A program made the position numbers and the translations under genes. Positions 1,040 to 19,741 of a stretch of 20,074 nucleotides of DNA are shown here, piece by piece. The stretch is from positions 1 to 20,074 of the IMG/VR virus record IMGVR_UViG_3300019752_000027. The stretch is one strand, 5' to 3'. A model generated the notes under the pieces. That model was given only the letters and a program-made list of their open reading frames with translations, did not search any database and had not been told where the DNA came from. Every line of letters begins with the position of its first letter. Within the stretch, counting starts at the first letter, position 1. Source of the DNA: a virus.

Positions 1040-2137
1040 ATGAAAAGAGAAGCAACACAATATAATATTAACGAAATCTTACAAGGTAAGAAGTTCGAAA
1101 TGGTTTCAAACCTAGCAAACGAAAAGTACAATAACGAAGATTGGAGATTTTATGCTGATTGGGATGTATTGCAAAGAGATACTACATGGAATCAGATGAT
1201 GAGAGAGGCTGATATAGCTATTATGGCTGTAAATCTTGACCCAGATTCAGATAAACCCCTAGTTTCTTTAGGTGGAATGGAAACTTATAGTGGTGATATT
1301 CCTTTTATGGGACTTGGAACTAGAATTGAAGGTAATGATATAAGACAAGCTTTACAATTAAAAGAGGTAGGGGCTTCATTAACATCAGAGGATGCTATGA
1401 GACTTACAATGACGTCTCTTGAAACATTATATCAAGGTATTCATAGTAAATTGAATTTCTATTGTTATCAAGGAATTTCTAAAGGACAAATAGTTGTAGA
1501 TACTAACAGTCAAAAAGATGGTAAGTTTATTTCTGTGGATCTTAATATTCCAGCAGCAAACAAAGTTAAAGTAGCTAAGGTTTGGTCGGATATTACTGCT
1601 AATCCTATTCAAGATTTGCTCGATAAGCAAAGATATGCTAAGAGAGAGTTAAATCTTGATATAACTGGAATGCACTGGGAAATGGATGAGGTTAAGTATA
1701 ACGCCTTTATGGAACATCCAAAGGTTGTTGAATTAATCCAAGCTAGATTACAGAAAGTGTCTGGAGATTATATTGTTACTGACGCTGAGAAGAAAGCGGT
1801 GATAAATACACTAGGAATTAGACCTATAGTAGTGGTAGATCAGGTTTGTAAATTCAACTCTGATGGCAAAAAACTTTCTATTAACCCATTTGAGGTTGAT
1901 AATGTAGTTTTAATACCAGATCTTCCATTCTTCAACATGAAGAGAGCTATTTCAAACCAAACAATTATTGGGCAAACTGTTTCAGCTCAACGTTCTACAG
2001 TAGAACAATGTATTGCAGCCGTTTCAACTTGGGATGACCAACATGGGGTTAATAATATTGATGTTGAGGCTTGGGCTTTTCCAGTTCCAAAAGATCCAAA
2101 AAACATTGTTATTATGGATACTACTACAGCAGCATAA
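1040..2137 (+). CDS. Major capsid protein (HK97-fold type)
   Basis: At 365 residues this has a typical size for an HK97-fold coat protein, and it lies between scaffold/decoration and connector genes. Recognisable coat-protein character includes an N-terminal helical region, an E-loop-like stretch (about residues 75-105: VSLGGMETYSGDIPFMGLGTR), a long spine-helix-like region (about 110-145, with SLTSEDAMRLTM), and a beta-rich P-domain/A-domain C-terminal half with PFEVDNVVLIPDLPFFNMKR. The product would form the icosahedral shell. It starts 6 bases after the upstream stop, with an A-rich leader and no clear Shine-Dalgarno. It is followed by a G/C hairpin at 2144-2163 that may reduce read-through and so favour coat production over downstream connectors. 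Assignment rests on sequence character and gene order; a structure-based search would settle the subtype. Confidence 0.85.
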   Translation: MKREATQYNINEILQGKKFEMVSNLANEKYNNEDWRFYADWDVLQRDTTWNQMMREADIAIMAVNLDPDSDKPLVSLGGMETYSGDIPFMGLGTRIEGNDIRQALQLKEVGASLTSEDAMRLTMTSLETLYQGIHSKLNFYCYQGISKGQIVVDTNSQKDGKFISVDLNIPAANKVKVAKVWSDITANPIQDLLDKQRYAKRELNLDITGMHWEMDEVKYNAFMEHPKVVELIQARLQKVSGDYIVTDAEKKAVINTLGIRPIVVVDQVCKFNSDGKKLSINPFEVDNVVLIPDLPFFNMKRAISNQTIIGQTVSAQRSTVEQCIAAVSTWDDQHGVNNIDVEAWAFPVPKDPKNIVIMDTTTAA

Positions 2138-2143
2138 CCATAT

Positions 2144-2174
2144 GGGGGATGAAATACTCCCCCTTTAATTTTAT
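2144..2174 (+). terminator. Hairpin with T-rich tail after the major capsid gene (probably leaky terminator)
   Basis: The six-base arms GGGGGA (2144-2149) and TCCCCC (2158-2163) enclose an 8-base loop and are followed by TTTAATTTTAT. This looks like a short intrinsic terminator or mRNA-stabilising hairpin just after the capsid stop and just before the next start at 2178. Because the connector genes continue in the same direction with no obvious promoter, it is probably only partly effective, lowering expression after the coat gene. Confidence 0.6.
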
Positions 2175-2177
2175 ACT

Positions 2178-2522
2178 ATGAATATAAAAGATTACCTAAA
2201 AGGACAGTTTATTAATCCACCATTTGAAGATGTTAATCTATCAACAGTTTTAGCAAAACGAGGAATAGCAGAAGATGCGGAACATGACACAGTATCAGAA
2301 CAAGATAGAGAGTTGGCTTATGCTGATCTATTAATGACACTGGTAACTATGTTTTCAGGGGGCGGCGCAACTAAAAAAAGAGGTAATTGGAGCGAGACAG
2401 CAGCTCAGGTTTCAATAGGTATAAATGATAGATTAAGCTTCATTAAGACAGCCAGAGAGATTTACAAGAAATATGGAGAAAGTATAAACTACACTATAAA
2501 AGATATTACAAATAGATGGTAG
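2178..2522 (+). CDS. Putative head-tail connector (adaptor) protein
   Basis: A 114-residue, largely helical protein, the first of four short overlapping genes between capsid and tail tube. N-terminal residues resemble small proteins common at this position in Bacteroidota phages (MNIKDYLKGQF followed by DVNLSTVLAKRGI). A long helix (EQDRELAYADLLMTLVTMF), a Gly-rich loop (SGGGATKKRGNW) and C-terminal helices follow. The portal-adjacent adaptor is normally a small helical protein, so adaptor is the best guess; this is by synteny, not by a diagnostic motif. Its last 7 bases overlap the next gene, which suggests coupled translation. Confidence 0.55.
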   Translation: MNIKDYLKGQFINPPFEDVNLSTVLAKRGIAEDAEHDTVSEQDRELAYADLLMTLVTMFSGGGATKKRGNWSETAAQVSIGINDRLSFIKTAREIYKKYGESINYTIKDITNRW

Positions 2523-2839
2523 AAGACATATATCCACATACAATAATAGTCTCTAGGGATTCTGTCTCGGATGATCCTTATCAAAACGATACTACAGCAG
2601 AAATTTTTAATGGCAAATGCTGTTGTCAAATTAGTGGCAATGGAGGAACAGGTGAAACTAACGGAGTTTCTGACAGTGATTATACTGTTTTTATAGAGTC
2701 TATTGATATTGAATTTAAAAAGGGTGATAATGTATCAATTGTAATGAAAGATGGTTATTCTCCAATTAAAGGCACTGTAAAGCAAAATTATTTCTCAGAA
2801 CTTGGGATTACACTGTGGATTAAGGAATATGAAAACTAA
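2516..2839 (+). CDS. Putative head-closure / stopper protein
   Basis: A 107-residue, beta-rich protein. The composition (VYP-type start HTIIVSRDS, alternating hydrophobic strands such as YTVFIESIDIEF, KKGDNVSIVMKDG and TLWIKEYEN) and its place as the second connector gene fit the small beta-barrel head-closure proteins that plug the neck below the adaptor. A CCC cluster (GKCCCQIS, about residues 33-40) is unusual for the family and might support disulfides or metal binding, or may be chance. It overlaps the previous gene by 7 bases and the next by 11 bases (if that starts at 2829). Confidence 0.5.
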   Translation: MVEDIYPHTIIVSRDSVSDDPYQNDTTAEIFNGKCCCQISGNGGTGETNGVSDSDYTVFIESIDIEFKKGDNVSIVMKDGYSPIKGTVKQNYFSELGITLWIKEYEN

Positions 2840-3260
2840 AAACGAGAAAGCCTTAGAACTAGGAATAAAGAAAGCTATGAGAATAGCTCAACATAAGGTT
2901 TTAGATTCTTTAGAAGCTACCGCTTGGGATTTGGTTGATGGTGTTTCAGTTCCTATTTTAACCCATAACCTTTGGGATTCTATCGGATGTGGAATATATT
3001 ACAAGGGAGAATTATTGAGAATATGTTTTCCTAATCCAGAAGCAGTAAATCCAAGTATATTCGAAGGAGAATGGGGTAGAGAAAATCTTGAAGATAAAAT
3101 ACTAGATGCTCCCACTGCGATAAAAACCTATCAAGGATATGTGTTGTATTATGTCGCTGCTATGCCTTATTCTGAAACGATAGACAACAGACCTGATGTA
3201 GATGTGTTAAGAAGTAATCTTGTAAAACCAATTTTTGAAACATATATTCACATGTTATGA
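2829..3260 (+). CDS. Putative tail-completion / neck protein (HK97 gp10-like position)
   Basis: The preferred start is the ATG at 2829 (MKTKNEKALELGIKKAM), giving 143 residues. An in-frame ATG at 2802 would add nine residues (MGLHCGLRN) but lies deep in the upstream gene and gives an atypical start. The N-terminal helix is basic and amphipathic, followed by a beta-rich domain with the segment SVPILTHNLWDSIGCGIY, a motif type seen in tail-completion proteins in which a long helix packs on a sheet. It sits third in the connector cluster and ends in a 4-base ATGA overlap with the next gene. Function is inferred from order; no catalytic residues are evident. Confidence 0.5.
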   Translation: MKTKNEKALELGIKKAMRIAQHKVLDSLEATAWDLVDGVSVPILTHNLWDSIGCGIYYKGELLRICFPNPEAVNPSIFEGEWGRENLEDKILDAPTAIKTYQGYVLYYVAAMPYSETIDNRPDVDVLRSNLVKPIFETYIHML

Positions 3261-3655
3261 TAGAAGCTAAATTAGATCCTAGTTTGATAGAATACACTAT
3301 TTACAATATTGTTAAAACTGTATATACAGGGAGAGTAACAATTGGGAATAGACCTTCTCTTTCAGAAACAGAGCTAAATGACTTAATAGTAGTTTTAGCT
3401 AATGGAGAGATAGAATCCATAAAAGCTACTGACAGACCTATTTTTGGCAATTGTTCTGTTATGATACAAATATGGGTTAAAGGTAAAAAAGATGGTACTA
3501 AAAATGCTGCTAGATTATCAGAATTACGTACACTAATAATGGGATTATTCCCAACAACTATAAACGAGTATTCAATCTCATATAAAAATGAAATAGGAAG
3601 CCGAGATAGTCTAGGCTTTCATTCGATAAATTTAAACTTTAAAATAAATTTCTAA
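3257..3655 (+). CDS. Putative tail terminator protein
   Basis: A 132-residue alpha/beta protein starting in an ATGA overlap with the previous stop, typical of translational coupling. It has an N-terminal helix (SLIEYTIYNIVKTVY) and beta strands (CSVMIQIWVKGKK, GFHSINLNFKINF), an arrangement common in the small proteins that cap the tail tube and join it to the head. It is the last gene before the tail tube, the usual place of the terminator. The assignment is positional; length fits (usually about 120-150 residues). Confidence 0.5.
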   Translation: MIEAKLDPSLIEYTIYNIVKTVYTGRVTIGNRPSLSETELNDLIVVLANGEIESIKATDRPIFGNCSVMIQIWVKGKKDGTKNAARLSELRTLIMGLFPTTINEYSISYKNEIGSRDSLGFHSINLNFKINF

Positions 3656-3665
3656 ATTAAATATT

Positions 3666-4199
3666 ATGGCAGATACAGCAATGACGCAAGCACTTAAGGT
3701 TTTAGCAAAAACTGGTAAGATATATCTTGCAGATAGAGGAACTATCACAGAAAATACAGCGTGGATGGAGTATTTTATGACAACAGAAAACACTCTTAAT
3801 ATTGACCAAGCCGAAGGTACTACACAAGATATTAGAACAGATCAAAAAACTGCTCCAGTTTCTACTATTAGAACAGCAGGTGAGTTCACTATTTCTTTTG
3901 ACGTTCCTTCTGTGGATTCGGTTGTTTTAGCATTGTTTTTCAATACTAGTACACCTTCTTATACTCCTTCTGGATATACATCTATCGGAGTAGGAACAGA
4001 GATGAAAACTCTTAATAAAATGATGAAAATCAACTTTACTAACAATGATTCAGATGCTATCTTTACGAACGTGGATTTAGTTGGGGTTGTTACAAAATCT
4101 TCTGATGGAGCATTTTCAATTAGAGTTACTGGAACAGTTCTTGCTGCTGGTGGTGTTGGAATGGAAGCTGAGGAAATGATTTTCGTTCATAAGGACTAA
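3666..4199 (+). CDS. Major tail tube protein
   Basis: A 177-residue, Thr/Ser/Ala-rich, mostly beta protein of the size usual for siphovirus tube subunits. Strands with alternating hydrophobics are visible (EFTISFDVPSVDSVVLALFF; MMKINFTNNDSDAIFTNVDLVGVV; FSIRVTGTVLAAGG). It follows the terminator-like gene and would precede chaperones and tape measure in a standard tail operon, so its role as the polymerising tube is well supported by order. Here the expected chaperone is separated from it by a reverse-strand insertion. A strong terminator at 4206-4240 follows the stop, so this unit ends here. Confidence 0.75.
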   Translation: MADTAMTQALKVLAKTGKIYLADRGTITENTAWMEYFMTTENTLNIDQAEGTTQDIRTDQKTAPVSTIRTAGEFTISFDVPSVDSVVLALFFNTSTPSYTPSGYTSIGVGTEMKTLNKMMKINFTNNDSDAIFTNVDLVGVVTKSSDGAFSIRVTGTVLAAGGVGMEAEEMIFVHKD

Positions 4200-4205
4200 T
4201 GTTAT

Positions 4206-4240
4206 AAAGCCCCACTTGTTAGGTGGGGCTTTCTTTTTAT
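4206..4240 (+). terminator. Strong intrinsic terminator after the tail tube gene
   Basis: Ten-base arms AAAGCCCCAC (4206-4215) and GTGGGGCTTT (4223-4232) enclose a 7-base loop and are followed by CTTTTTAT. The pyrimidine tail is on the + side, so it mainly ends the head/tail-tube transcript. The other side is A-rich and may also weakly stop the reverse-strand gene ending at 4237. Its core resembles the terminator at 6116-6146. Confidence 0.85.
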
Positions 4241-4434
4241 TTTAAAACATTAATAATAAATTTATGGAATTCTTCTGACTGTTTTGCAAAAGGTTGACAT
4301 ATTTTAACATGAGGGGTATCCATTTTAAGGTTACCTTGCTTGTTCTGGATAGCAACCATCCAATCAGCCGTAGTGATTATTTCTTTAACTTTAGGATTAT
4401 ATTTCCTAACTAGCTTCTCTGCTTCTTTTACCAT
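4237..4434 (-). CDS. Small hypothetical protein of first reverse-strand cassette
   Basis: A 65-residue basic, soluble protein, probably helix plus strand (KEAEKLVRKYNPKVKEI then ADWMVAIQNKQ). I do not recognise a family. It is the only start available in this frame, since a stop lies two codons upstream. Its orientation, its position 50 bases after the 4485-5255 gene and the shared promoter at 5279-5309 suggest a two-gene operon. A real gene is more likely than chance because it fills the space between the upstream gene and the terminator with a low-complexity-free sequence, but this is not certain. Confidence 0.5.
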   Translation of the reverse strand: MVKEAEKLVRKYNPKVKEIITTADWMVAIQNKQGNLKMDTPHVKICQPFAKQSEEFHKFIINVLK

Positions 4435-4484
4435 AATATCTTATTTTATCGGTTTACTTTTTGTTATTTCTATTCTCATATTTC

Positions 4485-5255
4485 TTATTTTAAAATTACT
4501 CCGCAAGGTGTGCCATTTTTGAAAGTATAGTCTCTTAACAATGCCTCATAGCTTATTGTACCATCGTGAACATATACGTCTTTACTATTGCAGCTAACTA
4601 CATATAGCCCTTCTTTAATTATTTTAGATATTATCCAGTTATTGTTTACTTCTATAAACTCCTCCATAGTGAAAGGTCTATACTTAGCCGCATGCTCTTT
4701 AATGTACTTCTCGGCACTTTCTTTTGTCATTATTTCAGACCTTACGTCTTCAATAGCCGTATATGTTTCAATATATATATTTCCTATATTGCAATGATAA
4801 ATCTTATAATCCTTAAAAGAAAACATCCAAACGATATCACCCTCAAAAAACTCCTCACCAAGAGAATTAACAAACAAAGGCTTAGGCTTATTATCAGCCT
4901 CCCATTGTTTTATTGTTTTGCAGTGCATAAATGCACAAATAACTCCCCTTTCATCTAATGCTACAATAGGATAATTATTCGTACGTCGAGGATTTGTGGA
5001 TAAATCAGCAAACACATCTAGCTTTATAGCATCCTTTTCACTAACATCCCAAACATACATATAATTAGGCTCTTGCTCCTGTTTTGCAAGTTTGAATCTT
5101 CTTTTTTTGTATTGACCAACAAACTTACCATCCTTCGTGACTCCTATATGAAAATCACCAACAGACTCAACTTCATATTTATTACCAAGTTCTAGATCAC
5201 AACCTACTACCTCAACACACTCAACTAAATCACCTTCTTTAAATTTATTTTCCAT
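4485..5255 (-). CDS. Hypothetical protein with SH3-like N-terminal domain (first cassette)
   Basis: A 256-residue soluble protein. Residues 1-56 form a compact beta unit of a kind found in many small Bacteroidota phage proteins (KFKEGDLVECVEVV, NKYEVESVGDFHIGV, ending RRFKL), which I read as an SH3/KOW-like barrel. A second, similar 'EFFEGDIVWMF' module starts near residue 137, followed by a helix with TKESAEKYIKEHA. No catalytic motif is seen. It lacks a signal peptide and membrane segments, so it probably acts in the cytoplasm. The start at 5255 is chosen because it lies 24 bases downstream of a Bacteroidota -7 box inside the 100-bp repeat. It is oriented against the tail genes, so it behaves like a moron; function unknown. 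Confidence 0.7.
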   Translation of the reverse strand: MENKFKEGDLVECVEVVGCDLELGNKYEVESVGDFHIGVTKDGKFVGQYKKRRFKLAKQEQEPNYMYVWDVSEKDAIKLDVFADLSTNPRRTNNYPIVALDERGVICAFMHCKTIKQWEADNKPKPLFVNSLGEEFFEGDIVWMFSFKDYKIYHCNIGNIYIETYTAIEDVRSEIMTKESAEKYIKEHAAKYRPFTMEEFIEVNNNWIISKIIKEGLYVVSCNSKDVYVHDGTISYEALLRDYTFKNGTPCGVILK

Positions 5256-5278
5256 ATCATTAATTTTTAATTACCCTA

Positions 5279-5309
5279 CAAACATAAAGCTAATTTCCCA
5301 CAATTCCAA
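5279..5309 (-). promoter_or_regulatory. Bacteroidota-type promoter for the first reverse-strand cassette
   Basis: On the reverse strand a TTG element (5307-5309) is followed by 20 bases and TATGTTTG (5279-5286), matching the Bacteroidota -33/-7 consensus TTG ... TAnnTTTG. Transcription would start a few bases beyond, leaving a leader of roughly 20 bases before the ATG at 5255. The leader contains the AT-rich dyad TAATT-TTT-AATTA. Confidence 0.75.
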
Positions 5310-5337
5310 GCAATTTTAAGAATTAATTTTTTTTCGT

Positions 5338-5345
5338 TATCTTTA
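5338..5345 (+). promoter_or_regulatory. Possible -7 element for the chaperone gene
   Basis: TATCTTTA matches TAnnTTTG at all but the last base and lies 21 bases upstream of the chaperone ATG, downstream of a long T-rich tract. It is preserved in the second copy of the repeat (7529-7536), also facing a + strand tail gene. Because a terminator at 4206 closes the upstream transcript, a promoter here is needed for good chaperone expression. No clear -33 TTG is visible, so this could depend on a phage factor. Confidence 0.45.
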
Positions 5346-5366
5346 CAACACATAAAATGAGAGATT

Positions 5367-5882
5367 ATGAGTGAAGAAATCAAAAGAGAAGCTGACATAA
5401 GAGCGCAGCAATTACAGATAGCATTATTAGAGGATAGGTCTTTCCCTACTAAAATAGGCAAGAAAACATATAAGTGCAAATATCTTAACAGTTGGACGCA
5501 AAGAAAGATTACTAATGTACTGTTAAAAGCAGAAGCTATTGATGAAAACGGAGGAATAGAAAACGTATTCAAAGCCGTAAACAAAAGTGGAACATTAGCA
5601 CCAAAAGTAGTATCGTATCTAATATTAAGACATCCAATAAAAGTCAAGCTATTTCACTGGTTATTCTGGCGCTATTTAGACATGACAACAAACTCTAGGG
5701 ATTTATACGATCCACTACTAAAGGCTCTTAAAGCGGCTGATGTTAATTTTTTTTTGACCAATATGGGATTGATGTCGGAAATAGTAATGACGAGGAAGAT
5801 ATGGACAGCGAAGGAAGTTGCAGCGATCCAAGCAAGTCAGAAATTGGGGCACGAGCAGGGTGGTGTAAAGAGTTCGGAATAA
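5367..5882 (+). CDS. Tail assembly chaperone, short form (gpG-like)
   Basis: A 171-residue product, the expected G-type tail chaperone by its place between tail tube and tape measure. The first 128 residues are mainly helical and charged (SEEIKREADIRAQQLQ; YLNSWTQRKITNVLLKAEA; HPIKVKLFHWLFWRYLDM), consistent with a protein that coats the unfolded tape measure before tube growth. At codons 127-130 (Asn-Phe-Phe-Leu) the message has a T9 run where ribosomes can slip -1. Without slipping, the frame continues 41 more codons with a high proportion of G at third positions, unlike neighbouring genes, so this tail may be loosely constrained. The slipped product is described in the next entry. Confidence 0.7.
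   Translation: MSEEIKREADIRAQQLQIALLEDRSFPTKIGKKTYKCKYLNSWTQRKITNVLLKAEAIDENGGIENVFKAVNKSGTLAPKVVSYLILRHPIKVKLFHWLFWRYLDMTTNSRDLYDPLLKALKAADVNFFLTNMGLMSEIVMTRKIWTAKEVAAIQASQKLGHEQGGVKSSE
5747..5756 (+). promoter_or_regulatory. Probable -1 ribosomal frameshift site (T9G slippery run)
   Basis: In the chaperone frame the codons are AAT TTT TTT TTG, so both U UUU UUU and U UUU UUG heptamers are present in the correct register for tandem -1 slippage. The last stop in the -1 frame ends at 5746, immediately before the run, and this frame then stays open to 6109. Such a site between overlapping chaperone frames just before a tape measure is the classical lambda G/GT arrangement. No strong downstream stem was evident by eye. 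Confidence 0.75.
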
Positions 5883-6109
5883 CCACTAAAGAATACGATA
5901 TGATGCCTATTGCTTTAAGACTCATAATAGGACAAGACTTGCCTAGTATAAAAACTAAGGAGAAGAAAAACAAGCCTAAAGAAACAATTAAAGTAATAGA
6001 TTATAATAAAAAACTAGGGGAGAAGATAAAAGCTGAAATGGCTAAGAAAGCCGAATTAGAAAAGATTAATTCTGAGATAAATTCTGACATGAAAGAAGCT
6101 AAGGGGTAA
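5747..6109 (+). CDS. Tail assembly chaperone, T-like extension made by -1 frameshift
   Basis: This frame has no credible independent start: its first ATG (5801) has no leader spacing typical of these genes, and the sequence before it reads sensibly right back to the T9 run (FDQYGIDVGNSNDEED). A slipped ribosome would make about 247 residues: 130 from the first frame plus 117 here. The extension has an acidic Ser/Asn/Glu linker, then a compact helical unit (WCKEFGITTKEYDMMPIALRLIIGQD) like the C-terminal modules of other frameshifted chaperones, and a Lys/Glu-rich tail. Third-position base use is A/T-rich, like the rest of the window, which favours this frame being the selected one over 5756-5880. 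It would bridge tape measure and tube subunits. Confidence 0.7.
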   Translation, partial: FFFDQYGIDVGNSNDEEDMDSEGSCSDPSKSEIGARAGWCKEFGITTKEYDMMPIALRLIIGQDLPSIKTKEKKNKPKETIKVIDYNKKLGEKIKAEMAKKAELEKINSEINSDMKEAKG

Positions 6110-6115
6110 TGATTT

Positions 6116-6150
6116 AACCCCACCTTTTTGAGGTGGGGTTTTCTTTTATT
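6116..6150 (+). terminator. Strong intrinsic terminator after the chaperone gene
   Basis: The nine-base arms AACCCCACC (6116-6124) and GGTGGGGTT (6132-6140) enclose a 7-base loop and are followed by TTCTTTTATT. It lies 7 bases after the chaperone stop and abuts the end of the converging antirepressor gene. The CCCCAC/GTGGGG core is shared with the terminator at 4206-4240, so both reverse cassettes begin next to the same kind of hairpin. Confidence 0.85.
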
Positions 6151-6775
6151 CATAATATCTACTTGTCAACCAATCTTGCCCTTTAGGTGTAATTAAGGTT
6201 TGCTGACTAATTATAGACTTATCCTCACGAACGTTTATAACTTTTTCAATAACTTCAAAATATTTTAAATCCATATATTTCTGATAAGGATTGTTCTTTT
6301 GTCTTCCTTGACTAATAAAAACCTTATCTTTTCTAAGTTGGCTAAAAAGCTTGTTTTGTCCCCAGTTAATCATCTTAGCAAACTGCCCCACTGAAATAGA
6401 AACATCAGACTGCATTAATTTATCATGCAACTCTACTTTAGGTTGCTGTTCTAACAATTTAGCTCTATCTTTTTTCCATCCATCTAGTAATCTCTGAATA
6501 TTGTTGGGATCTGAAAAATCCACTGCTATTGATAAATAACCTCCATTCTTTCTGATTGACTTAAGAATGTGTTTTACTTCTTTTTTAAACTGTTTTGCCA
6601 TCGGTTTTCTTGATTGCATCAAAGCTTCATATAAACCATCTTCTGTCAGCATGGTTACTTTTCTATTTTGACCTCCTACACAAATTGTGTGTATCAGCTT
6701 TTCTTCACCATCAACCTTACGAGTAACGGCATACCCATCTCTTTCTTCTAACAAATCGGCTACGTCTTTAGCCAA
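6146..6775 (-). CDS. Phage antirepressor, main part: rest of BRO-N plus KilA-C/ANT domain (5' end frameshifted)
   Basis: Residues 1-75 (AKDVADLLEERDGYAVTR, LTEDGLYEALMQSRKPMAKQF, LKSIRKNGGYL) are the body of a BRO-N domain, the N-terminal DNA/protein-binding module of phage antirepressors. Residues about 118-205 (SISVGQFAKMIN, NKLFSQLRKDKVF, NPYQKYMDLKYFEVI, then TLITPKGQDWL) fit the ANT/KilA-C domain. No ATG is available: the frame can start only at the TTG at 6775, in the middle of the domain, and the missing N-terminus is encoded just upstream in the +1-related frame (6760-6867). A one-base loss in a T run at 6774-6777 explains this. Restored, the protein would be about 240 residues, normal for the family. 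Such proteins relieve repression by binding a prophage repressor. Finding it inside tail genes on the opposite strand is unusual. Confidence 0.8.
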   Translation of the reverse strand: MAKDVADLLEERDGYAVTRKVDGEEKLIHTICVGGQNRKVTMLTEDGLYEALMQSRKPMAKQFKKEVKHILKSIRKNGGYLSIAVDFSDPNNIQRLLDGWKKDRAKLLEQQPKVELHDKLMQSDVSISVGQFAKMINWGQNKLFSQLRKDKVFISQGRQKNNPYQKYMDLKYFEVIEKVINVREDKSIISQQTLITPKGQDWLTSRYYE

Positions 6776-6867
6776 AATAAAGGCTCTTCTGGAGTTCCGT
6801 AAACATTAAATACTTGATTACTTAATACTTCTGCTTCTTTAATTATTTTAACTTCCTGTTCTTTCAT
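6760..6867 (-). CDS. N-terminal fragment of the same antirepressor (35 codons)
   Basis: The ATG at 6865-6867 starts a 35-residue frame, MKEQEVKIIKEAEVLSNQ, followed by VFNVYGTPEEPLF, then out-of-frame WLKT and TAG. The VYGTPEEPLF segment is the expected first strand/turn of BRO-N, which in intact relatives runs on as a hydrophobic residue followed by AKDVA. Re-reading one base after Phe31 (codons TTA TTT then TTG GCT AAA) joins it exactly to the main frame as PLF-LAKDVADLL. The start lies 18 bases after the stop of the upstream 6886-7446 gene, so the two form an operon. It may be a broken gene, a sequencing error in a short T run, or an uncommon frameshift. Confidence 0.75.
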   Translation of the reverse strand: MKEQEVKIIKEAEVLSNQVFNVYGTPEEPLFWLKT

Positions 6868-6885
6868 ACGCTTTATTATTTATTA

Positions 6886-7446
6886 TTACCAATACATTTC
6901 TACATTAACATCTCTATACACCTCTTCGCTATTCTCATCATCTTTAAGACTAAAATGAGCCTTGCCTTTTGTTGAGTTAAAAGCTACATCATTACTAGTT
7001 CCAGCGCTTACAAAATAACGAATATCAGGTTCATGCAAAAACTCCCCTATCGGCATAAGCGTAGTATTATCATACCTTCTCTCCCATTCTTGATTAAAAT
7101 CTAAAATACACTCAATATCAGTATTTTCCTCATTAGGGTAAGTAAAAATAATTTCTTTTATAGGAAAACTATACTCATAAGAGGAGTACCACTGTCGATA
7201 ATTTGTTATTATTCCAAAATTATTAATCTGAAAAGAATCTTTATTTACGATTGAGGGTACATGAAGATTAATTTTACATTTATAATCTCCTACTCTGAAT
7301 TTTTCTCCCAATGGAGGGAGGTTTAAAGTTGCTCCCCTTACATCTTCTATTTTAGCTTGTAACTCTAAAACTTCTTTTTTTAGCTTTTTAATCATTACAC
7401 CTTGCATCATTAGTAGATTTTTGATATCTATTATTTGATTTTCCAT
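6886..7446 (-). CDS. Hypothetical protein with N-terminal coiled coil (second cassette)
   Basis: A 186-residue protein with no family that I recognise. Residues 1-38 are a strong amphipathic helix with heptad spacing (MENQIIDIKNLLMMQG, KKLKKEVLELQAKI), likely to oligomerise. The remainder is predicted beta-rich, with many aromatic residues (FGIITNYRQWYSSYEYSF; HFSLKDDENSEEVYRDVNVEMYW). No signal peptide or membrane segment is seen. It starts within the 100-bp repeat, 24 bases from a consensus -7 box, and ends 18 bases before the antirepressor start, so both are probably co-transcribed. A structural or host-interaction role is possible, but nothing in the sequence fixes it. Confidence 0.65.
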   Translation of the reverse strand: MENQIIDIKNLLMMQGVMIKKLKKEVLELQAKIEDVRGATLNLPPLGEKFRVGDYKCKINLHVPSIVNKDSFQINNFGIITNYRQWYSSYEYSFPIKEIIFTYPNEENTDIECILDFNQEWERRYDNTTLMPIGEFLHEPDIRYFVSAGTSNDVAFNSTKGKAHFSLKDDENSEEVYRDVNVEMYW

Positions 7447-7469
7447 ATCATTAATTTTTAATTACCATA

Positions 7470-7500
7470 CAAACATAAAGCTAATTTCCCACAATTCCAA
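7470..7500 (-). promoter_or_regulatory. Bacteroidota-type promoter for the second reverse-strand cassette
   Basis: On the reverse strand TTG (7498-7500), 20 bases, then TATGTTTG (7470-7477), identical to copy A. It would drive the coiled-coil protein and the antirepressor from a leader of roughly 20 bases. Confidence 0.75.
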
Positions 7501-7528
7501 GCAATTTCGAGAATTAATTTTTTTTCGT

Positions 7529-7536
7529 TATCTTTA
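7529..7536 (+). promoter_or_regulatory. Possible -7 element for the tape measure transcript
   Basis: TATCTTTA, one base off the TAnnTTTG consensus, follows the T-rich tract as in copy A. It would start RNA around 7543, just upstream of the hairpin at 7558-7583. Since the chaperone transcript is closed by the terminator at 6116, this is the only visible candidate for transcribing the tape measure and everything to 19543. A -33 element is not obvious. Confidence 0.45.
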
Positions 7537-7557
7537 CGTAAAATTAACTAACCTACA

Positions 7558-7590
7558 AAGAGGTGTCATTCGTGGCATCTCTTTTTTATT
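7558..7590 (+). terminator. UUCG-loop hairpin with T-run directly upstream of the tape measure start
   Basis: Arms AAGAGGTGTCA (7558-7568) and TGGCATCTCTT (7573-7583) pair over 11 bases with two G-U pairs, closed by a UUCG tetraloop, and are followed by six T and ATT. It has every feature of an intrinsic terminator yet lies 17 bases before the tape measure ATG and after the presumed promoter. It may therefore be an attenuator, a leader-stabilising hairpin, or the relic of the terminator that once followed the chaperone gene. Confidence 0.75.
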
Positions 7591-7599
7591 TATATACAG

Positions 7600-10500
7600 A
7601 TGGCAGATAAAATTGGCGAACTTGAATACGACCTACGAGTATCGGATGAACAGTTTGAGAAAGACCTTAAAAAGCTTAATGAAAAGCTAAAAAAACATGG
7701 TGCACAGATGGAGAAATCTTTAACCATTTCTGCTAAGACAAACATAACAGCAGCTACAAAGCAACTACAAGGACAATTTCAAGAAAGTATTAAAGGAATA
7801 GGGAGGACTAATGATGGTCTTAAGTCCATGAATGCTTACTATAAGGATTTGGAGAAAACATCCAAAGCGGCTGCTAAGAGTACCGAAAAAGCTTCTAGGC
7901 TAGAAACGGCGGCGCTTAAAAAAGAGGCTCAAATGGCTATTAAGGCTGAATCTGCTATTAATAGAAAAATCAGACTAAGAGATAAAGCTATTACTGCTGC
8001 CGAAAGAGCCACCAAAGCCGAAGAAAGAGCTAATGCAGCGGCGGCTAAAAAAGTCTCTAATATAAATAAAGCTAATTCAGCATATAAAAAACAGAGCTTA
8101 TATTTACAAAATATTCGTACTGCGGCGGCTTCTTACGTCTCTTTATTTGCGGCTGTAGGAATACTTAATAACATAAGAAGGGTAACAGGTGAATTTGAAC
8201 TACAAAATAAAGCATTAGCAGCGATAATTCAAAACAAAGATAAAGCAGATCAACTTTTTGCTCAAGTGACAGATTTAGCACTAGAATCACCTTTCGGAAT
8301 ACGAGAGCTTCTTTCTTACACTAAACAGTTAGCAGCTTACAGAATAGAGAGTGAAGAATTAATACCTACACTTACAAAACTTGCTGATGTATCTGCTGGT
8401 CTTGGCGTGGATATGAATAGACTAATATTAGCTTATGGTCAGGTTCGTGCAGCTTCCGTTTTGAGAGGGTGTTTCGGATTAAATACTCCTGTATTAAAGA
8501 TAGATAAAACGGTTATACCTGTTCAAGATATTAAAAAGGGAGATGTATTAATAGGTGATGACAACACGAATAGAAACGTTCTCGAAACAATAAAAGGTCG
8601 TGAGCAAATGTATTGGATTAAACAGTCTAATGCAGATAATTACAGAGTAAATCATAATCACATAATGACACTTCTTAAGGATGGTCAATTAGTAGATATT
8701 TATCTTTATGAATTATTAAACAAGGATATTTCTGAATACAAAGGAGTAAATGCTATTAACGGAAATATTTCAGACATTGAGATAGAAAAAGATACTATTG
8801 ATGATTATTATGGCTTTGTTATAGATGGCAATAAAAGATTTTTATTGGGTGATGGTTCTATTGCGCATAATACAGAATTAAGACAATTCACAGAGGCTGG
8901 AATACCAATGGTAGCCTTACTTGCAGACAAATTCACAGAGCTTGAAGGGACTGCTGTCTCTACCGCTGATGTGTTTGATAGAATATCAAATAGAGCCGTT
9001 TCTTTTAAGGTTGTTTCTGAGATTTTTAATGACATGACAGCTAAGGGCGGAACATTTTTTGAAGCTCAAAAAGTACAAGCTGAGACATTATACGGTATGT
9101 GGAATATCTTAGGAGATGCTATGGATAAAATGTATAACCAAATAGGTCAGGCTAACTTAGGTGTTCTTAAAGATGGTGTAAAAGGAGCTATTGACTTAGC
9201 TCGTAATTGGGAAACAGTTGTTGATGTTTTAAAAGCTGCCGTTTTGACGTTTGGAGCTTACAAAACTGCCATGATGGTTAATTTGGTTATCAGGAAAAGC
9301 CTAAGAAATATGACCCTTTCCGAGATTCAAGCCTTAAAAGCTGCGGACGCAATACAGAAGAAAAGAATAATTACAATGAACTTAGCTAGCGTGGCAGGTA
9401 AAAAGCTAACTGGAGTTATGAAAAAACTATATGCTATTAAAGGAACTCTTGCTATTGCTGGGTTTGCTTTATTGGCTGAATATTTATATACATCATATGA
9501 AAATTCTCAAAAATTAACAAGAGAACTAGATAAACTAGCTTCCGAAGGTGTTGTCAAAGTAGGGGATTTAGTATCCAACTTTAAAGAATTAGCCAAAGCT
9601 GCACTGGAAGCAAATGATGGATCTAACAATCAAAGAGAGGCTATAGCTGAACTTAAGAGAACATATAAAGACTATCTTCCTATGCAGAAATTTACCATTG
9701 AAAATCTTAAAGAGATGAGTGGTAATTATGACTCTGTAACAGAAGCTATCAATAGAAAAGTGGAAGCTCAAATTAAAGAAAAGACACAAACAGCTATTGA
9801 TACTGAATTTAATGAGAAAAAACAAGATGCTCTTGGGACTATATCAGAGAGCTTAGTAGGGTTTCCTGTAAAAGGAGGGACTGAAAAACTTACGCAAAAA
9901 CAAGCTGCGTTTATAGCAAAAACATTTAGAAATCAATTAGAAAGTGAACTTAAAAAGGGATTAGATACAAATCCTTATGGTATATTACTACAAACTATTG
10001 AAGAGTTTGATTATGCTGGAAGTGCTAATGCTAGAATACAATACGGTTTTGACGAGGTTAGAAGAAGCACATATGCGTACAGAGACGCATTGCAAGAGTT
10101 AAGCAAAGCAGAATCAGACAGAGATACAAAACTAGATGCTGCTTTTGGATTTACAGATGTAAGAGCTAAAGATTTCAAAGCACTTACTAAAATAAGTGAA
10201 GATTACGAAAAAACTATTAGAGAGATAAACGCCAAACCATTAACTGATGATGCCTTTCAGGTGGAGACGCTCGAAGCTAAGAAAGATAAACTTAAAAACA
10301 TCATTTCTTATTATACTGAATTAGCCAATAAAGCTGATGGTTTTGATAAGAAGTTATTTGAGAAAGATAAGGTTAAACAATACACACAAGAGTTAAACAA
10401 ACTAACAGTAAACATAAAATCTTACGCTAAAGAAGTAAATGACATAATAAAAGCTAATCAGGGAGATACTACTTTTGGTCAAGTTTTTGCTGTAGGGGAA

Positions 10501-13500
10501 GATGAAGATCCGATAGAACATGGCAAAAAAACAGCAAAAGCTTATAAAGAACTAATATTAGACATTAAAGCTACAGAGGGTATAATAAAAGGACTTAAAG
10601 ATGGTGGTGAGGATATATTAGCGCAAACCAAAATACTGAAAATACTAGAAATTAAAAGCGTGGTGGCAAAAGCTATTATTGACGCTATGAATACCTCTCT
10701 ATCTAAAAATGGAGCTAAAAGCGATGGGAATATATCTAACTTACGTGCTGAATTAGATTTACTTAAGAAGATTAAAAAATCTCGTGAGGATTTAAGTAAA
10801 ATAATGACAACTGAAGATGTTGAAGCTAATATTCAAAAGTTGTTTGGTGGTCAAGCTAAAGATTTAAACATCAAAATTCCTATATCTTCTGACTCTTCTG
10901 CTTTTTATGAGCAACTGGAAAACCTAGCTGTTAGAGCTGAGAATTTAGGAGGGAAAGCTGGCATATCATGGGCTAAAGGGTTGCGTAACCAAATAGGCAC
11001 TATGCAAGTTGACGACATAAAAGAAACTGCTATTAGAGCTTTGAAAGCATTAGATATTGAAGTAGCTAAATATAAAGGAAAGTATAAATTCTACAAGGAT
11101 GTATTAGGAATTACTGGCAATGATGAATTAGCTGTAAAATTAGCTTTCGAAGGTACTGAATCAGCAACAAACTTTATTGATACGCTTAAGAAGAAGATAG
11201 AAGATTTAGCTCATAGTGGTGATTTCAATATAAATCCTAACTTAGATTTCGAAGGTATTAAAAAACTTGACAATCTTCCCGAAAAACTAGCTAAAGCCAT
11301 TAAGAAAGTAGACGATACAATAACAAAAGAGTCAACAAATACTCTTCTTAAGAGATTAAAGTTTCTGGAAACAAAAACTCCAGAAGGAATGGGATTAGCA
11401 TTTGATTTTTCTGATGTTATTACAGACACATCCAAATCGGCTGCCAAGATAAGAAGAGAGATAGAAAGTATAGTTAAAGACGCTAGTAAACAAGATATTA
11501 CTAGAATAAATCAGATTGGAGATTTACAATTAAAAAGCATATCAGAGCAAGCAAGACAACGAATTGAAAAAATGGGGGCTGCTTATACTAAAGAAAGGAT
11601 TGAAATTGCTGGACTTGGAGAATCTTATAGTAATATGACTAATGCTTCTTTAACTGACATAAACAAAATAATAGAATTAATAAAGAAGGGACAACAAGAT
11701 TTACTTAGTGGTGAAGGTTTACAAAACATGATAAATAGCCTAAAACTAGATTCAGATGTTTCTGACAGCTTGTTTGGCGATATTTTCAATTCTTCCAACA
11801 TAGATGATTTTGTTTCAAAAGTCAACGATTTAGAAGTGGAGATGAAAAATGCCAGCAATGTAAAAATAGGAACTAAAGTTGTATCAGAGGAACAAATACT
11901 AAAAATACAGGAATTTATCACGCTTCTTAAAGCTATGGGATTAGCGAATAAAAACGCTTTAGATACAACTACCGAGAAAAAAATAAAGAAACAAATAGCT
12001 GAATGGAGACAATTTAACAACTCACTGACAGATGTTATAGGTACTGTTAGAGACTTAGGGTCTACAATGGGTGAGAGCCTATCAGAAGAAGGAGAAAGAG
12101 CCTTAAATGCGATACAAGGAGTATCAACTGGCATAATGACAGCTATTTCAGAAACCAGTAAACTAGCCGTAGACGGAATAAGTGCCGTGGAAAAAGCTTC
12201 TGTTATCCTAGCTGTAATAAGCGCTTCATTAAAAATAATACAAGGAATAAGTGAAGCTATAGATACGCTTAATAACAAAGACATAACTGCACAACAAGAA
12301 CAAACAAAGCAAGTAGCTGACCGTATAAATATGGAGATGGCTATAAATAAAATAATTAGAGACAGAAACAAACTACAAGAAGAAAGTATTATTTTAGGCA
12401 AAGATGCTGGAAAATCTATGGGAGAAGCCTTTAGTTTAATGGATGAAAGTACTGCTGAATTTGATGAAGCAATAAAATCACTTTCTGAAAATGCTATTTT
12501 TAGTGATGAGGAATCTTGGAGAAACTTATGGGGATTTGGATCTAAAAGAAGCAAGGAATTTAGTTTTTCCATAAAAGATATTCTTGGGGAAAAAGGCTCT
12601 GGAGGAGGATCTGTATTAGACTGGTGGTTTACAGGTGTTTTTGATAAACTAGACTTGTTTGGGAAAGCTGGAAAAGGAGAAGCTAAAGGGAAAGCTTATG
12701 AGAGTATAATAAATACAATGAAAGAATCTCTTGGAGCTATCGGTAAAACAACAGAAGATTTACTAGATATGTCGTCTGCTGAATGGTTGGATTTCTTTAG
12801 ATTAATGAAAGAAGGAGGCAAAATAACCGACGAAGCAACATTAGGCTTAATAGCAAATGCAGAGGAAGCTCAGGCTAAATATGCTGAAGCTATGGAGAAT
12901 GTTAAAGAGATAATATTGAGCATTACTGGTGATTTAGGAAATCAACTAGGAGATACCTTAGCAGATGCTTTCGAAAGAGGTATAGATGGAGCTGAGGAGT
13001 TTAAGCATGTTGTGGAAGGAATGATAGAAGATCTCTTAAAAAAACAGTTAGTAAACACATTGTTTAAGAAAGATTTTGACGCACTAGAGAAACAAATGCA
13101 AGATTCCATGAGAATAGGTGGTGATGGAAGTTGGATAGATGATATTGAGACTTTCTTTACTAATATAGAAGGCAAAAGTGAAGAAGCTAACAAGTTATTC
13201 GAACAATTCAGAAGAGAAGGTAAAGCTAAAGGTTTCGATTTGTTCGGAGGAGATGGCGGTGATTTAGGTAACCTAGCTAAGGGAATTACTGGCGTTACAG
13301 AAGATACTGCTAGGGAATTAGCTGGAATGCTAAACAGTATCAGAGAAAGCGTTATTCTTCAAGGTGCAGATATAAAACACATAAGCGGAACTCTTAATAA
13401 TATGTATATCATACAAGGGCAAAGTTTAACTAATTTAATCGAGATAAACCAAAACACAGGAGCTATGAAAAATGCCATTGAATCTGTTTTAGGACAAGGA

Positions 13501-13536
13501 AGTAAAGGTACAGCAATCAAAGTAATAATAGAATAA
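7600..13536 (+). CDS. Tail tape measure protein interrupted by a mini-intein
   Basis: The 1978-codon frame is by far the longest gene and follows the chaperones, as expected for the protein that sets tail length. The N-terminus (residues 1-190) is charged and coiled coil (EYDLRVSDEQFEKDLKKLNE; Ala/Lys/Glu-rich repeats). Residues 190-290 and 425-530 form the conserved tape-measure domain (ELQNKALAAIIQNKDKAD; LALESPFGIRELLSYTKQLAAY; LRG joined to TELRQFTEAGIPMVALLAD; GGTFFEAQ; LYGMWNILGDAMDKMYNQIG). Hydrophobic segments occur near residues 546-564, 616-630 and 1533-1550, as expected for a protein injected through membranes. Most of 640-1480 is helical. Removing the intein (291-424) leaves 1844 residues, which at about 1.5 angstrom per residue implies a tail of roughly 275 nm. 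The ATG at 7600 lies 17 bases after a terminator-like hairpin. Confidence 0.92.
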   Translation: MADKIGELEYDLRVSDEQFEKDLKKLNEKLKKHGAQMEKSLTISAKTNITAATKQLQGQFQESIKGIGRTNDGLKSMNAYYKDLEKTSKAAAKSTEKASRLETAALKKEAQMAIKAESAINRKIRLRDKAITAAERATKAEERANAAAAKKVSNINKANSAYKKQSLYLQNIRTAAASYVSLFAAVGILNNIRRVTGEFELQNKALAAIIQNKDKADQLFAQVTDLALESPFGIRELLSYTKQLAAYRIESEELIPTLTKLADVSAGLGVDMNRLILAYGQVRAASVLRGCFGLNTPVLKIDKTVIPVQDIKKGDVLIGDDNTNRNVLETIKGREQMYWIKQSNADNYRVNHNHIMTLLKDGQLVDIYLYELLNKDISEYKGVNAINGNISDIEIEKDTIDDYYGFVIDGNKRFLLGDGSIAHNTELRQFTEAGIPMVALLADKFTELEGTAVSTADVFDRISNRAVSFKVVSEIFNDMTAKGGTFFEAQKVQAETLYGMWNILGDAMDKMYNQIGQANLGVLKDGVKGAIDLARNWETVVDVLKAAVLTFGAYKTAMMVNLVIRKSLRNMTLSEIQALKAADAIQKKRIITMNLASVAGKKLTGVMKKLYAIKGTLAIAGFALLAEYLYTSYENSQKLTRELDKLASEGVVKVGDLVSNFKELAKAALEANDGSNNQREAIAELKRTYKDYLPMQKFTIENLKEMSGNYDSVTEAINRKVEAQIKEKTQTAIDTEFNEKKQDALGTISESLVGFPVKGGTEKLTQKQAAFIAKTFRNQLESELKKGLDTNPYGILLQTIEEFDYAGSANARIQYGFDEVRRSTYAYRDALQELSKAESDRDTKLDAAFGFTDVRAKDFKALTKISEDYEKTIREINAKPLTDDAFQVETLEAKKDKLKNIISYYTELANKADGFDKKLFEKDKVKQYTQELNKLTVNIKSYAKEVNDIIKANQGDTTFGQVFAVGEDEDPIEHGKKTAKAYKELILDIKATEGIIKGLKDGGEDILAQTKILKILEIKSVVAKAIIDAMNTSLSKNGAKSDGNISNLRAELDLLKKIKKSREDLSKIMTTEDVEANIQKLFGGQAKDLNIKIPISSDSSAFYEQLENLAVRAENLGGKAGISWAKGLRNQIGTMQVDDIKETAIRALKALDIEVAKYKGKYKFYKDVLGITGNDELAVKLAFEGTESATNFIDTLKKKIEDLAHSGDFNINPNLDFEGIKKLDNLPEKLAKAIKKVDDTITKESTNTLLKRLKFLETKTPEGMGLAFDFSDVITDTSKSAAKIRREIESIVKDASKQDITRINQIGDLQLKSISEQARQRIEKMGAAYTKERIEIAGLGESYSNMTNASLTDINKIIELIKKGQQDLLSGEGLQNMINSLKLDSDVSDSLFGDIFNSSNIDDFVSKVNDLEVEMKNASNVKIGTKVVSEEQILKIQEFITLLKAMGLANKNALDTTTEKKIKKQIAEWRQFNNSLTDVIGTVRDLGSTMGESLSEEGERALNAIQGVSTGIMTAISETSKLAVDGISAVEKASVILAVISASLKIIQGISEAIDTLNNKDITAQQEQTKQVADRINMEMAINKIIRDRNKLQEESIILGKDAGKSMGEAFSLMDESTAEFDEAIKSLSENAIFSDEESWRNLWGFGSKRSKEFSFSIKDILGEKGSGGGSVLDWWFTGVFDKLDLFGKAGKGEAKGKAYESIINTMKESLGAIGKTTEDLLDMSSAEWLDFFRLMKEGGKITDEATLGLIANAEEAQAKYAEAMENVKEIILSITGDLGNQLGDTLADAFERGIDGAEEFKHVVEGMIEDLLKKQLVNTLFKKDFDALEKQMQDSMRIGGDGSWIDDIETFFTNIEGKSEEANKLFEQFRREGKAKGFDLFGGDGGDLGNLAKGITGVTEDTARELAGMLNSIRESVILQGADIKHISGTLNNMYIIQGQSLTNLIEINQNTGAMKNAIESVLGQGSKGTAIKVIIE
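8470..8871 (+). other. Mini-intein (134 residues) in the tape measure protein
   Basis: Residues 291-424 of the tape measure frame carry the landmarks of a splicing intein. Block A starts with Cys291 (CFGLNTPVL, then PVQDIKKGDVLIG). Block B is YRVNHNHIMTL, with His354 in the key position but Asn351 where Thr of TxxH is usual. Block F is DYYGFVIDGNKRFLLGDG. Block G is SIAHN ending in His423-Asn424, followed by Thr425 as the first C-extein residue. The upstream residue is Gly290. Joining the flanks restores LRG-TELRQFTEAG, a conserved tape-measure motif. Only about 48 residues separate blocks B and F and no LAGLIDADG, HNH or GIY-YIG motif is seen, so no homing endonuclease is present. Splicing itself is inferred. 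Confidence 0.93.
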
Positions 13537-13540
13537 TTAT

Positions 13541-13945
13541 ATGGGACTATTTAAAGTAACAAGAGAGGGTGAGATAGAAACAGACCTAGAAGATATGGGT
13601 GTGACAATAACACACTCACCTACTTATAAAGAAGAATATAAAGAACCTAGTAAGAGGAGTTGGGCTAACGAAGATGGGGATGATGTGTATTTCCCTGTAA
13701 CTAGAAAAACTAAGTCCCAAAAAATAATAATCGAGTTTTTCTGCGAAGGTAATAGCTATTTGTCGGATTATCGCAATTTTTGTATCTTTATGGCTGAGAA
13801 AAAGTTTGTTTGGAAAGATGAAAATCAAGGGCTAACCTTTGATGGAATCTGCTCTGAATCAGAAGCGACAAGACATGATGTTGCAAAAAAATTAACAGGT
13901 AAAATAATAATAAATAATTATACAGGAAGATATGGGAACATTTAA
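13541..13945 (+). CDS. Putative distal tail / baseplate protein downstream of tape measure
   Basis: A 134-residue protein starting 4 bases after the tape measure stop. It has beta strands with a polar N-terminal part (MGLFKVTREGEIETDLEDMGVTITHSPTYKEEY) and the central segment KKTKSQKIIIEFFCEGNSYL, then SDYRNFCIFMAEKKFVWKDE. Position immediately after the tape measure and before the large hub-like gene is where distal-tail proteins are found in siphophages. It is shorter than many distal-tail proteins (often 200-300 residues), so it may be only the core ring domain. Function by synteny only. Fourteen bases overlap the next gene. Confidence 0.45.
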   Translation: MGLFKVTREGEIETDLEDMGVTITHSPTYKEEYKEPSKRSWANEDGDDVYFPVTRKTKSQKIIIEFFCEGNSYLSDYRNFCIFMAEKKFVWKDENQGLTFDGICSESEATRHDVAKKLTGKIIINNYTGRYGNI

Positions 13946-14686: not shown

Positions 14687-17600
14687 ATGATAGACATAAA
14701 AAGAAATATAACTACAATAGTAGCATCTTCTAGGAAATATGTGTATTCAGGTATTCATATGGGAGAAAAAACGGTGACTGTAACAGTTCAGTCACCTACT
14801 CCTATAACTTTCCTAAAAGGAGATGCTGTTGTTTACAATAATAACACCTTTAGACTTAGAGTAGTTCCGACAGGACATCAAGTTTACAATAGCGAGCTTA
14901 TTGAATACACACTAGAATTTAAGCATGAACAGTATGAATTAGGATTAACATCTTTTAAGGACGTTGTACCTGAAGGTGGTGTATCTGAGGCTTATTACAA
15001 CAACACATCAAATGTTGTAACGATAGGTACTGTAGAGAATTTAATGGGGCGCATAATCTCTAATATGAATAGAACTTATGCAGGGTGGTCTTTTGTCATA
15101 GGAGCAGAAGTTGAATTAATAGAGAAAGATATTATCTTAAACAATCAAAAATGTTCAGATGCTCTTGCTTTAGTGTCGTCATTGTTTGGATTACAATATT
15201 GGATTACTGGCAAGCAAATAAGAGTTGGTGGTACTGCACCTGTAGTTGGTGGTGTTTTTGAATATGGTAAAAACAAGGGAATATGTGAGATTACTAGATC
15301 TGGGGAGAACAAAGAAATGACTACTAGACTTTTCGCATATGGTTCAAGTAGGAACATTCCTTCTGACTATAACGTCACAGAGGATTATAAAAATAACCCA
15401 AGACTAATGCTTCCAAATTTTGTAAGCACTGGAGTCAATCATATAGATTCTCCATTAATAGACCTAAACAATATAGAAGAAGGTGAATTATCTAATGACA
15501 GTATATTCCCAAGCATAAACGATGGTACAGGAAGAAATCAAATCGTTTTGATGGATAACATAGAAGAAGATTTACAAGCTGGATTTTATGTTCATATAAA
15601 AGACATAGGATTCAACATAAACGACAAGCTTACTAGTAAACCGCCTGTTTTAAGCATGATTTCTGGATTAACAACTGGTTTAGAATTTGAAATAACAGAA
15701 GTTATACCATATACCGATGCTGGATTCCCAGAGGAAGATAAAATAACTGGTGCTGCTTATAGGTTGTTATGTAAAAGAAATACAACAATAGAAAACAGAC
15801 CACTACCTAATAACGTAGTGAAAATGATAAATGGGGATAAGTTTGTATTGTTAGATATCTTAATGGATGAATCTTATGTGTTAAACGCTGAAACAAGACT
15901 ATTAGAATGGGCACAAAAACAATTCTCAGAACAAAACATAGACAAACAAAAAACTACATATTCAGCAAAATTCACAGAGGAATATATAGATGCAAATCCA
16001 GCTATAAAAGACACTATACTAGAAGGTAGCTTAGTTCATATTAAATCTACTGAGTTTGATATAGATGATAATATAACTATACAAACTTTAACAATAACAC
16101 ATGACGAAAGTCCTTTCCCTAAATATGACTTAAGTATAGCTAATACGGTAATAGCTAGTAAATTCACTTCTGTGATAGACAGTGTTAAAAATGTTGAAAA
16201 CGAATTACAATATAAAGTAAGTACAGATGATATTAAAGCTCAACAAACATCTGAAAACATAAGATTACTAGAAGAAGCAAATAAGGCTGTTGTATTTGGA
16301 GAATCTATAAATAATTTCATTGTAGATGGGAATGTAAACATAAACAATTCAGCACTTACAGCTAGTGGTGGAACTATAGTACATAGAGGCAAAGATGTTT
16401 ATTTTGGTATAAATAACACACAAGCAAATAAAGTATGGCTGATTGCTGACCAATATTTAGCCACATTAGATGTAAATAAAACTTTTAGGTTGTATATAAA
16501 AGCTTCTAAAACATCTTCTTCTGCTTGGTGGATACATAGTGAAAATGAATTAATCCAAGATACTGATGATTTTTTCTATTTCGAGTGGGGTACAATATTT
16601 CCAATTGACGAAAATGGGAAGCGTCCTATTTCTTCAACAAAAGGGATAACAGCTATTGTTGGTGGCACTATATATACAGAAATGACTCGATCTTTGAATG
16701 GGTTTTCGTATTCTGATTGGGAGAACAATAGGGCTATATGGGGAGATGGTACTAATGGATGGGATTGGAATGTAACAACTCCAAACACAATGACTACTAG
16801 AGGTATGCAAATCCAATCTCCTTCTGGCATAACACAGCCATTAGGCGTTAATAGAGGTACTTATTCTCCACTAGTTACTTATTATGTTGGGGATCAGGTT
16901 TATTACGACCAGAGTACATATTTATGTATAACACAAAGCTTAGGCAATGATCCAAAAACAGGATATTGGCAAGCAGTAGCTCTTAAAGGTGAACCTTTTT
17001 CATTCGATCAAGGACTATTAGTAGATAGACCAGACGCCACAACAGAAGCTATTGGGTATTCGTATTTTGCCACAGACACCAGTTTGCTATATATGGTCAT
17101 AGCTGGAAATCCTCAAACTTGGAATGAAGGTGCGCCTTTTGGTAAAGGAGAAGATGGTAAAACATATTATACTTGGATAAAATATACAGACGTATTAGAT
17201 AGAACATTAGGATTTAATGGTAAAACATTAGGATTTAATGGTAAAACATTAGGACTTACAGGGGGGCAAGTTTTAGACGACAATAGAGGGGCAGTTTACC
17301 TTGGAATATCATACAATAATGAATCACCTACAGAATCACTAAATCAGGCTGATTACACTTGGACTAAAATCAAAGGAGACGATGGTGCAACTGGAGCTAG
17401 TGGATTAAATGGAGATACTTATGAATACAGATACGCTAAAAACGGATCTCCAATAACTCCTCCATCTTTAAACAATACAGATAGAACACCTATTGGATGG
17501 AGTATAGAAAAACCATCTATAGGGGCTATGGAAGCTATTTGGATGATTAGAGTTAAAATAAGTGGCGTTACAGGAAATCTGATAGGAAATTGGACTTCAC

Positions 17601-19732: not shown

Positions 19733-19741
19733 ATTTTTAAA

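Follow-up and report, generated by a model that had tools for sequence, protein, structure and literature searches.

Two reverse-strand cassettes under near-identical 100-bp heads in the tail operon of a Bacteroidota siphophage: a possible reusable cargo socket

How phages gain accessory genes in the middle of an essential operon without breaking it is an old question, and the tail region of one Bacteroidota siphophage (capsid protein E family; tape measure of phrog_9959) raises it in a particular form: why do two gene cassettes, both read against the tail operon, begin with almost the same 100 bp? The window, meaning the whole stretch of DNA analysed here, is a virus record of 20,074 bases, itself a fragment. 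Its best tape-measure relatives are in Bacteroides, Parabacteroides and Riemerella phages. The best tape-measure relative is 47-49% identical over the conserved part, and the collections appear to miss close relatives of this phage. A scan that used a portion of the tape measure protein brought up related loci, 80 of them viral and 22 in genomes, and tail tube and chaperone profiles built from the relatives located both genes in 77 loci, the window counted in. The features on which the argument turns are the following.

3666-4199, forward strand: tail tube gene (weak Phage_TTP_17 match; relatives' tail tube profile, E 1.7e-14)
4206-4232, forward strand: intrinsic terminator that follows the tail tube gene, hairpin and T-run (z -4.4); cassette 1 ends against it
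4237-4434, reverse strand: 65-aa open reading frame without family match, second gene of cassette 1
4485-5255, reverse strand: 256-aa gene starting Met-Glu-Asn, first of cassette 1 (weak phrog matches)
5247-5346: repeat copy 1, a divergent control region including the first three codons of the reverse gene
5367-6109, forward strand: two-frame tail assembly chaperone gene, G/GT type (relatives' chaperone profile, E 4.1e-18)
6116-6140, forward strand: intrinsic terminator after the chaperone gene, hairpin and T-run (z -4.3); cassette 2 ends against it
6146-6867, reverse strand: antirepressor gene (Bro-N and KilAC), second of cassette 2 (ANT 1.3e-27, Bro-N 2.9e-11, phrog_130 1.4e-46)
6886-7446, reverse strand: 186-aa orphan gene starting Met-Glu-Asn, first of cassette 2 (no relative found)
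7438-7537: repeat copy 2
7557-7584, forward strand: terminator-like 12-bp hairpin and T-run, attenuator candidate (-14.1 kcal/mol, z -3.3)
7600-13536, forward strand: tape measure gene (phrog_9959, 6.5e-63; Hint domain; contains a mini-intein)

The chaperone gene is recognized as G/GT type by its two overlapping frames, a candidate programmed -1 slippery site (T9 at 5747-5755) and its place between tail tube and tape measure; the relatives' chaperones have the two-frame layout too, with an A9, A10 or T9 run in most of those inspected. The mini-intein of the tape measure (134 aa, residues 291-424, window 8470-8871; Hint domain of Hom_end_hint) begins with CFGLNT, ends with SIAHN and is followed by T, splitting a conserved LRG/ELRQFTEAG motif that relatives keep uninterrupted as LRGQELRQF. 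Further along, the gene of a large tail protein holds three tandem 21-bp units (TLGFNGK) at 17200-17262.

An earlier note on this DNA had pointed to two near-identical 100-bp stretches, each forming the head-to-head junction between a reverse gene starting Met-Glu-Asn and a forward tail gene, and both the identity and the layout were borne out. The copies are direct, 2191 apart, and align without gaps at 97 of 100 positions, where the best ungapped 100-mer match in an order-1 Markov sequence of equal length reaches 53-54; they differ at 5276 (C/A) and at 5317-5318 (TA/CG). Identity drops at once to chance beyond both sharp edges; the repeat extends from the third codon (ATGGAAAAT, Met-Glu-Asn) in the reverse genes up to the final base of a forward TATCTTTAC box. 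The record holds these two copies only; a third, partial candidate at 19715-19743 was rejected, being merely start-codon context (ATGGAAAAT) within a reverse operon. The note was also right that the control region is shared and the cargo is not: the 256-aa and 186-aa proteins are unrelated (BLASTP E > 1), and between repeat and terminator the two cassettes show no trace of common origin.

The wider claim of that note, namely repeated use of one promoter cartridge as a platform with exchangeable cargo, fared less well. Short AT-rich matches aside, the 100-mer is absent from 50,697 phage records and from 393 Bacteroidales genomes (a sample of a single order), and one exact 20-mer from its core has no match in 2.9 million viral contigs. 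The case stands at two copies in one genome, and repeated use and exchange of cargo are at most hypotheses, since no other record searched contains the 100-mer.

Comparison with intact relatives, also proposed at the outset, gave a clear outcome. The gap between tail tube and chaperone is at most 250 nt in 73 of the 77 tail modules (window counted), and the distance from chaperone frame 0 to the tape measure, second chaperone frame included, is at most 420 nt in 72 of 77; both are wide in the window. Because the tail tube and chaperone genes, as well as the chaperone and tape measure genes, adjoin in nearly all relatives, both reverse cassettes are, judged by gene order, insertions relative to intact relatives, and their genes are absent from comparable genomes at these places. 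In the relatives inspected, the first gap usually contains an intrinsic terminator and lacks a consensus -7 box, and the tape measure follows the chaperone almost directly, with no terminator between. Neither junction gap holds a consensus -7 box in the approximately 20 relatives inspected, the lone TAnnTTTG among them lying inside the second frame of the chaperone (L045). Since the relatives' chaperone/tape measure junction has no terminator, terminator 6116 and everything up to 7599 would have come with or after cassette 2.

The two terminators call for separate treatment. That each cassette ends at a similar terminator, as the earlier note had it, holds in so far as both are strong and more alike than 98.9% of random terminator pairs from relatives. 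Their identity is nevertheless clearly below the 97% of the head, and gapped; being far less alike than the heads, they need not share an origin, although a common one is possible from their likeness. Terminator 6116, the end of cassette 2, has no counterpart in relatives; terminator 4206 stands where relatives regularly have one and, because a terminator usually separates their tail tube and chaperone genes, is probably resident rather than borne by cassette 1, which departs from the earlier description.

Both junctions take other cargo in other phages, as gene order in a few related loci indicates. Genes lie between tail tube and chaperone in three further loci (L043, L066 and L068), and the chaperone-tape measure junction holds extra genes only in the window and in L007 and L008, where they are reverse genes (the L007 chaperone lay beyond the reach of the profile and was assigned by position only). 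A repeated 100-bp head occurs in none of these five loci. In L043, a reverse AntA/KilAC antirepressor and a 132-aa open reading frame abut the tail-tube terminator; next come an HTH_3 gene on the forward strand and a gene for 184 aa. The divergent antirepressor and HTH_3 repressor-like pair (L043, 4229-6006) resembles a miniature immunity module set within the tail operon. At the chaperone-tape measure junction, L007 and L008 show a full-consensus forward box (TATCTTTGC) and then a terminator-like hairpin with a T-run.

These comparisons also brought up other repeated elements. A unit of promoter, AGAGCC-rich leader and terminator hairpin recurs at 4213-4345 in L007 and at 6499-6630 and, in reverse, 70-190 in L008; it would give an RNA of approximately 60 nt and was found only in these two contigs, from one metagenome. 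L080 was considered as a second case of repeated junctions and rejected: its repeats turned out to be many tandem arrays of a 9-bp unit (TGGGAGGAC-like) and a GC-rich hairpin (GAAGCCCCC...GAGGGGAGG) that recurs, all in intergenic DNA among the tail genes from 1080 to 13580. Finally, self-complementary stretches (79-80%; approximately 100 bp long) in which each strand bears promoter-like boxes occur in L018 (96-194), L059 (110-209) and L061 (154-256).

What, then, does the shared head contain? The Bacteroidota promoter consensus consists of TTTG at -33 and TAnnTTTG at -7 (PMC7366714). A matrix was made from 102 sites upstream of relatives' genes and used to score 40,046 window positions; its training sites all read TAnnTTTG, so this box is favoured by construction. 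Four boxes lie within the repeat.

5279-5286, reverse strand: -7 box TATGTTTG of copy 1, with a -33-like TTGG 19 nt upstream; top promoter score in the window
5338-5345, forward strand: -7-like box TATCTTTA of copy 1, behind a T-tract; rank 53
7470-7477, reverse strand: -7 box TATGTTTG of copy 2; rank 3
7529-7536, forward strand: -7-like box TATCTTTA of copy 2; rank 68

On the reverse side, TATGTTTG agrees exactly with the sigma-ABfr consensus at -7, with TTGG or CTTG at -33 (one mismatch; spacer of 19 or 20), and lies 24 nt upstream of the start codon, the two boxes taking ranks 1 and 3 of all positions scored. The forward boxes rank 53 and 68 because the sequence there reads TATCTTTA, one mismatch that removes the consensus G; their -33 element has one mismatch as well. 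The bare TAnnTTTG is at chance level in the window (23 occurrences against 28 expected), and TTG-N20-TAnnTTTG occurs three times against 0.7 expected, two of the three inside the repeat: the distinctive thing is the full promoter geometry and its context, the -7 box alone being ordinary. A sigma-70 promoter scan of the window gave no more than chance. From the consensus, the repeat is predicted to carry promoters in both directions, and, as far as sequence alone can tell, each cassette has a promoter of its own.

The earlier note had further suggested that the forward side became a replacement promoter for the separated tail genes. There is a fair forward match in the repeat, of modest rank and without the consensus G, and the hairpin at 7557-7584 sits in the presumed tape measure leader, downstream of copy 2's forward box and ahead of the gene. 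Given that fair match and the terminator-like hairpin before the tape measure gene, the suggestion keeps the standing of a hypothesis.

The 256-aa protein has weak matches to phage families, DNA-binding ones and others of unknown function: its N-terminus matches phrog_4927 and phrog_14634 (DNA binding protein) weakly, and residues 176-242 match phrog_23901, again weakly. The 186-aa protein has no relative in viral contigs nor in 345 genomes of the class, nor do these 345 genomes encode a relative of either first cargo protein; a peptide-pattern search for relatives of these two proteins, the chaperone and the antirepressor was likewise negative. The predicted structure of the 186-aa protein is unusable (pLDDT 41), an Rfam search gave nothing, and a single PADLOC match (E 0.0055) carries no weight. 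Cargo GC (0.305-0.332) is close to that of the phage (0.34), so composition gives no sign of foreign origin. Both Bro-N and KilAC domains are present in the antirepressor, yet not in a single intact reading frame: the open frame runs from 6146 to 6775 and the first ~35 codons, from 6867, occupy another frame, so the gene reads as frameshifted and cassette 2 may be decaying. The window contains no repressor partner for this antirepressor.

The account that we favour, and hold to be reasonably probable from these sequence comparisons, is that one promoter head, copied recently, stands at the front of two moron-like insertions. Cassette 1 would have inserted directly behind the tail-tube terminator and cassette 2 between chaperone and tape measure. 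In each, a canonical sigma-ABfr-type promoter predicted in the head would drive transcription opposite to the operon, through two genes and up to a terminator that would also end the forward gene. The 97% identity with sharp edges suggests recent copying of the head, in an order that we infer. As the head is near-identical but the cargo differs, cassette 2 would either have been assembled behind a duplicate of the first head or have had its cargo swapped through recombination between the similar ends, head and terminator; whole-cassette duplication with later cargo replacement and re-use of the head alone could both fit the data. Because each insertion separates tail genes from their operon, a forward restart is attractive, and the weaker promoter at the forward edge of the head may re-start chaperone and tape measure transcription behind the insertions.

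Is the forward half a promoter at all? It is a serious possibility, if short of probable, that late transcription crosses the cassettes by read-through or antitermination and that the repeat serves the reverse genes only. The ranks of 53 and 68 and the terminator-like hairpin between forward box and tape measure gene agree with this, as do the relatives, which have no promoter box between terminator and chaperone, so that transcription presumably reads through there; the edge of the repeat nevertheless falls exactly at the forward box, and the boxes at the same junction in L007 and L008 are of full consensus. A plain segmental duplication from terminator to head by unequal recombination, with the middle replaced or diverged and the head without special role, would explain why the cassettes are alike at their ends and unlike between them, but we consider it on the unlikely side, the two ends being very unequal in identity and the middle keeping no trace of common origin.

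That the repeat serves regulation, with one operator in both heads for a phage repressor or late activator, kept alike by selection or gene conversion so that cassettes and tail genes are switched together, seems improbable: the repeat takes in both directions, cassette 2 includes an antirepressor and, in L043, a divergent HTH_3 repressor-like gene lies across from the antirepressor cassette, but the 100 bases show no convincing dyad or direct-repeat operator, and identity spans the entire stretch rather than sites alone. An assembly artefact from a mixture of strains, suggested by a repeat length near read and k-mer length, is hardly credible, since two direct copies leave a single linear arrangement in which the contig retains the chaperone, and in over 70 relatives tail tube, chaperone and tape measure come in the order seen here.

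With two insertions under one copied head as the preferred reading, how does the locus compare with known systems? For antirepressor modules (ANT/KilAC proteins), the textbook case is P22 immI; cassette 2 and L043 are like them in carrying KilAC antirepressors transcribed against late genes, but in the window there is no repressor partner and the antirepressor frame is broken. Like morons (a term from Juhala et al. 2000, as cited in PMC7067206, where an accessory locus antisense to lytic genes has its own promoter), the cassettes are additional genes that lie among late genes, run against the operon, have a predicted promoter of their own and end at a terminator (for cassette 1 probably a resident one), and are absent from relatives; unlike morons, they share a near-identical two-way head, which may also serve the downstream tail genes. 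Cluster O mycobacteriophages have a 17-bp palindrome in more than 30 copies, with Corndog gene 14 and a leftward gene in the structural operon as the points of comparison (PMC4351075). The likeness lies in a gene of one genome flanked by a direct repeat that relatives have once, and in a reverse gene with its own promoter within structural genes; the window repeat, in contrast, is 100 bp long, has two copies and is a promoter region. The start-associated sequences of cluster K (13 bp long, in many copies and tied to translation starts; PMC3203893) similarly place one control sequence before unrelated genes, near the start codon, whereas the window repeat is a whole divergent promoter plus three codons.

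The layout is thus unusual for familiar phage cargo, and a reusable cargo socket is a plausible description of it. In the full sense of the term, the 100-bp head would drive reverse cargo, restore the interrupted tail genes in the forward direction and, through its identity, permit homologous exchange of cargo without harm to the tail operon; this stronger proposal is rather doubtful. If true, it predicts paired starts on both strands, strain-variable cargo behind an unchanged head and a forward restart of the tail genes, and a two-way head copied to two tail-operon junctions would be a concrete, testable answer to the question of how accessory genes enter an essential operon. The tail tube-chaperone-tape measure junctions are also marked as insertion points in Bacteroidota siphophages.
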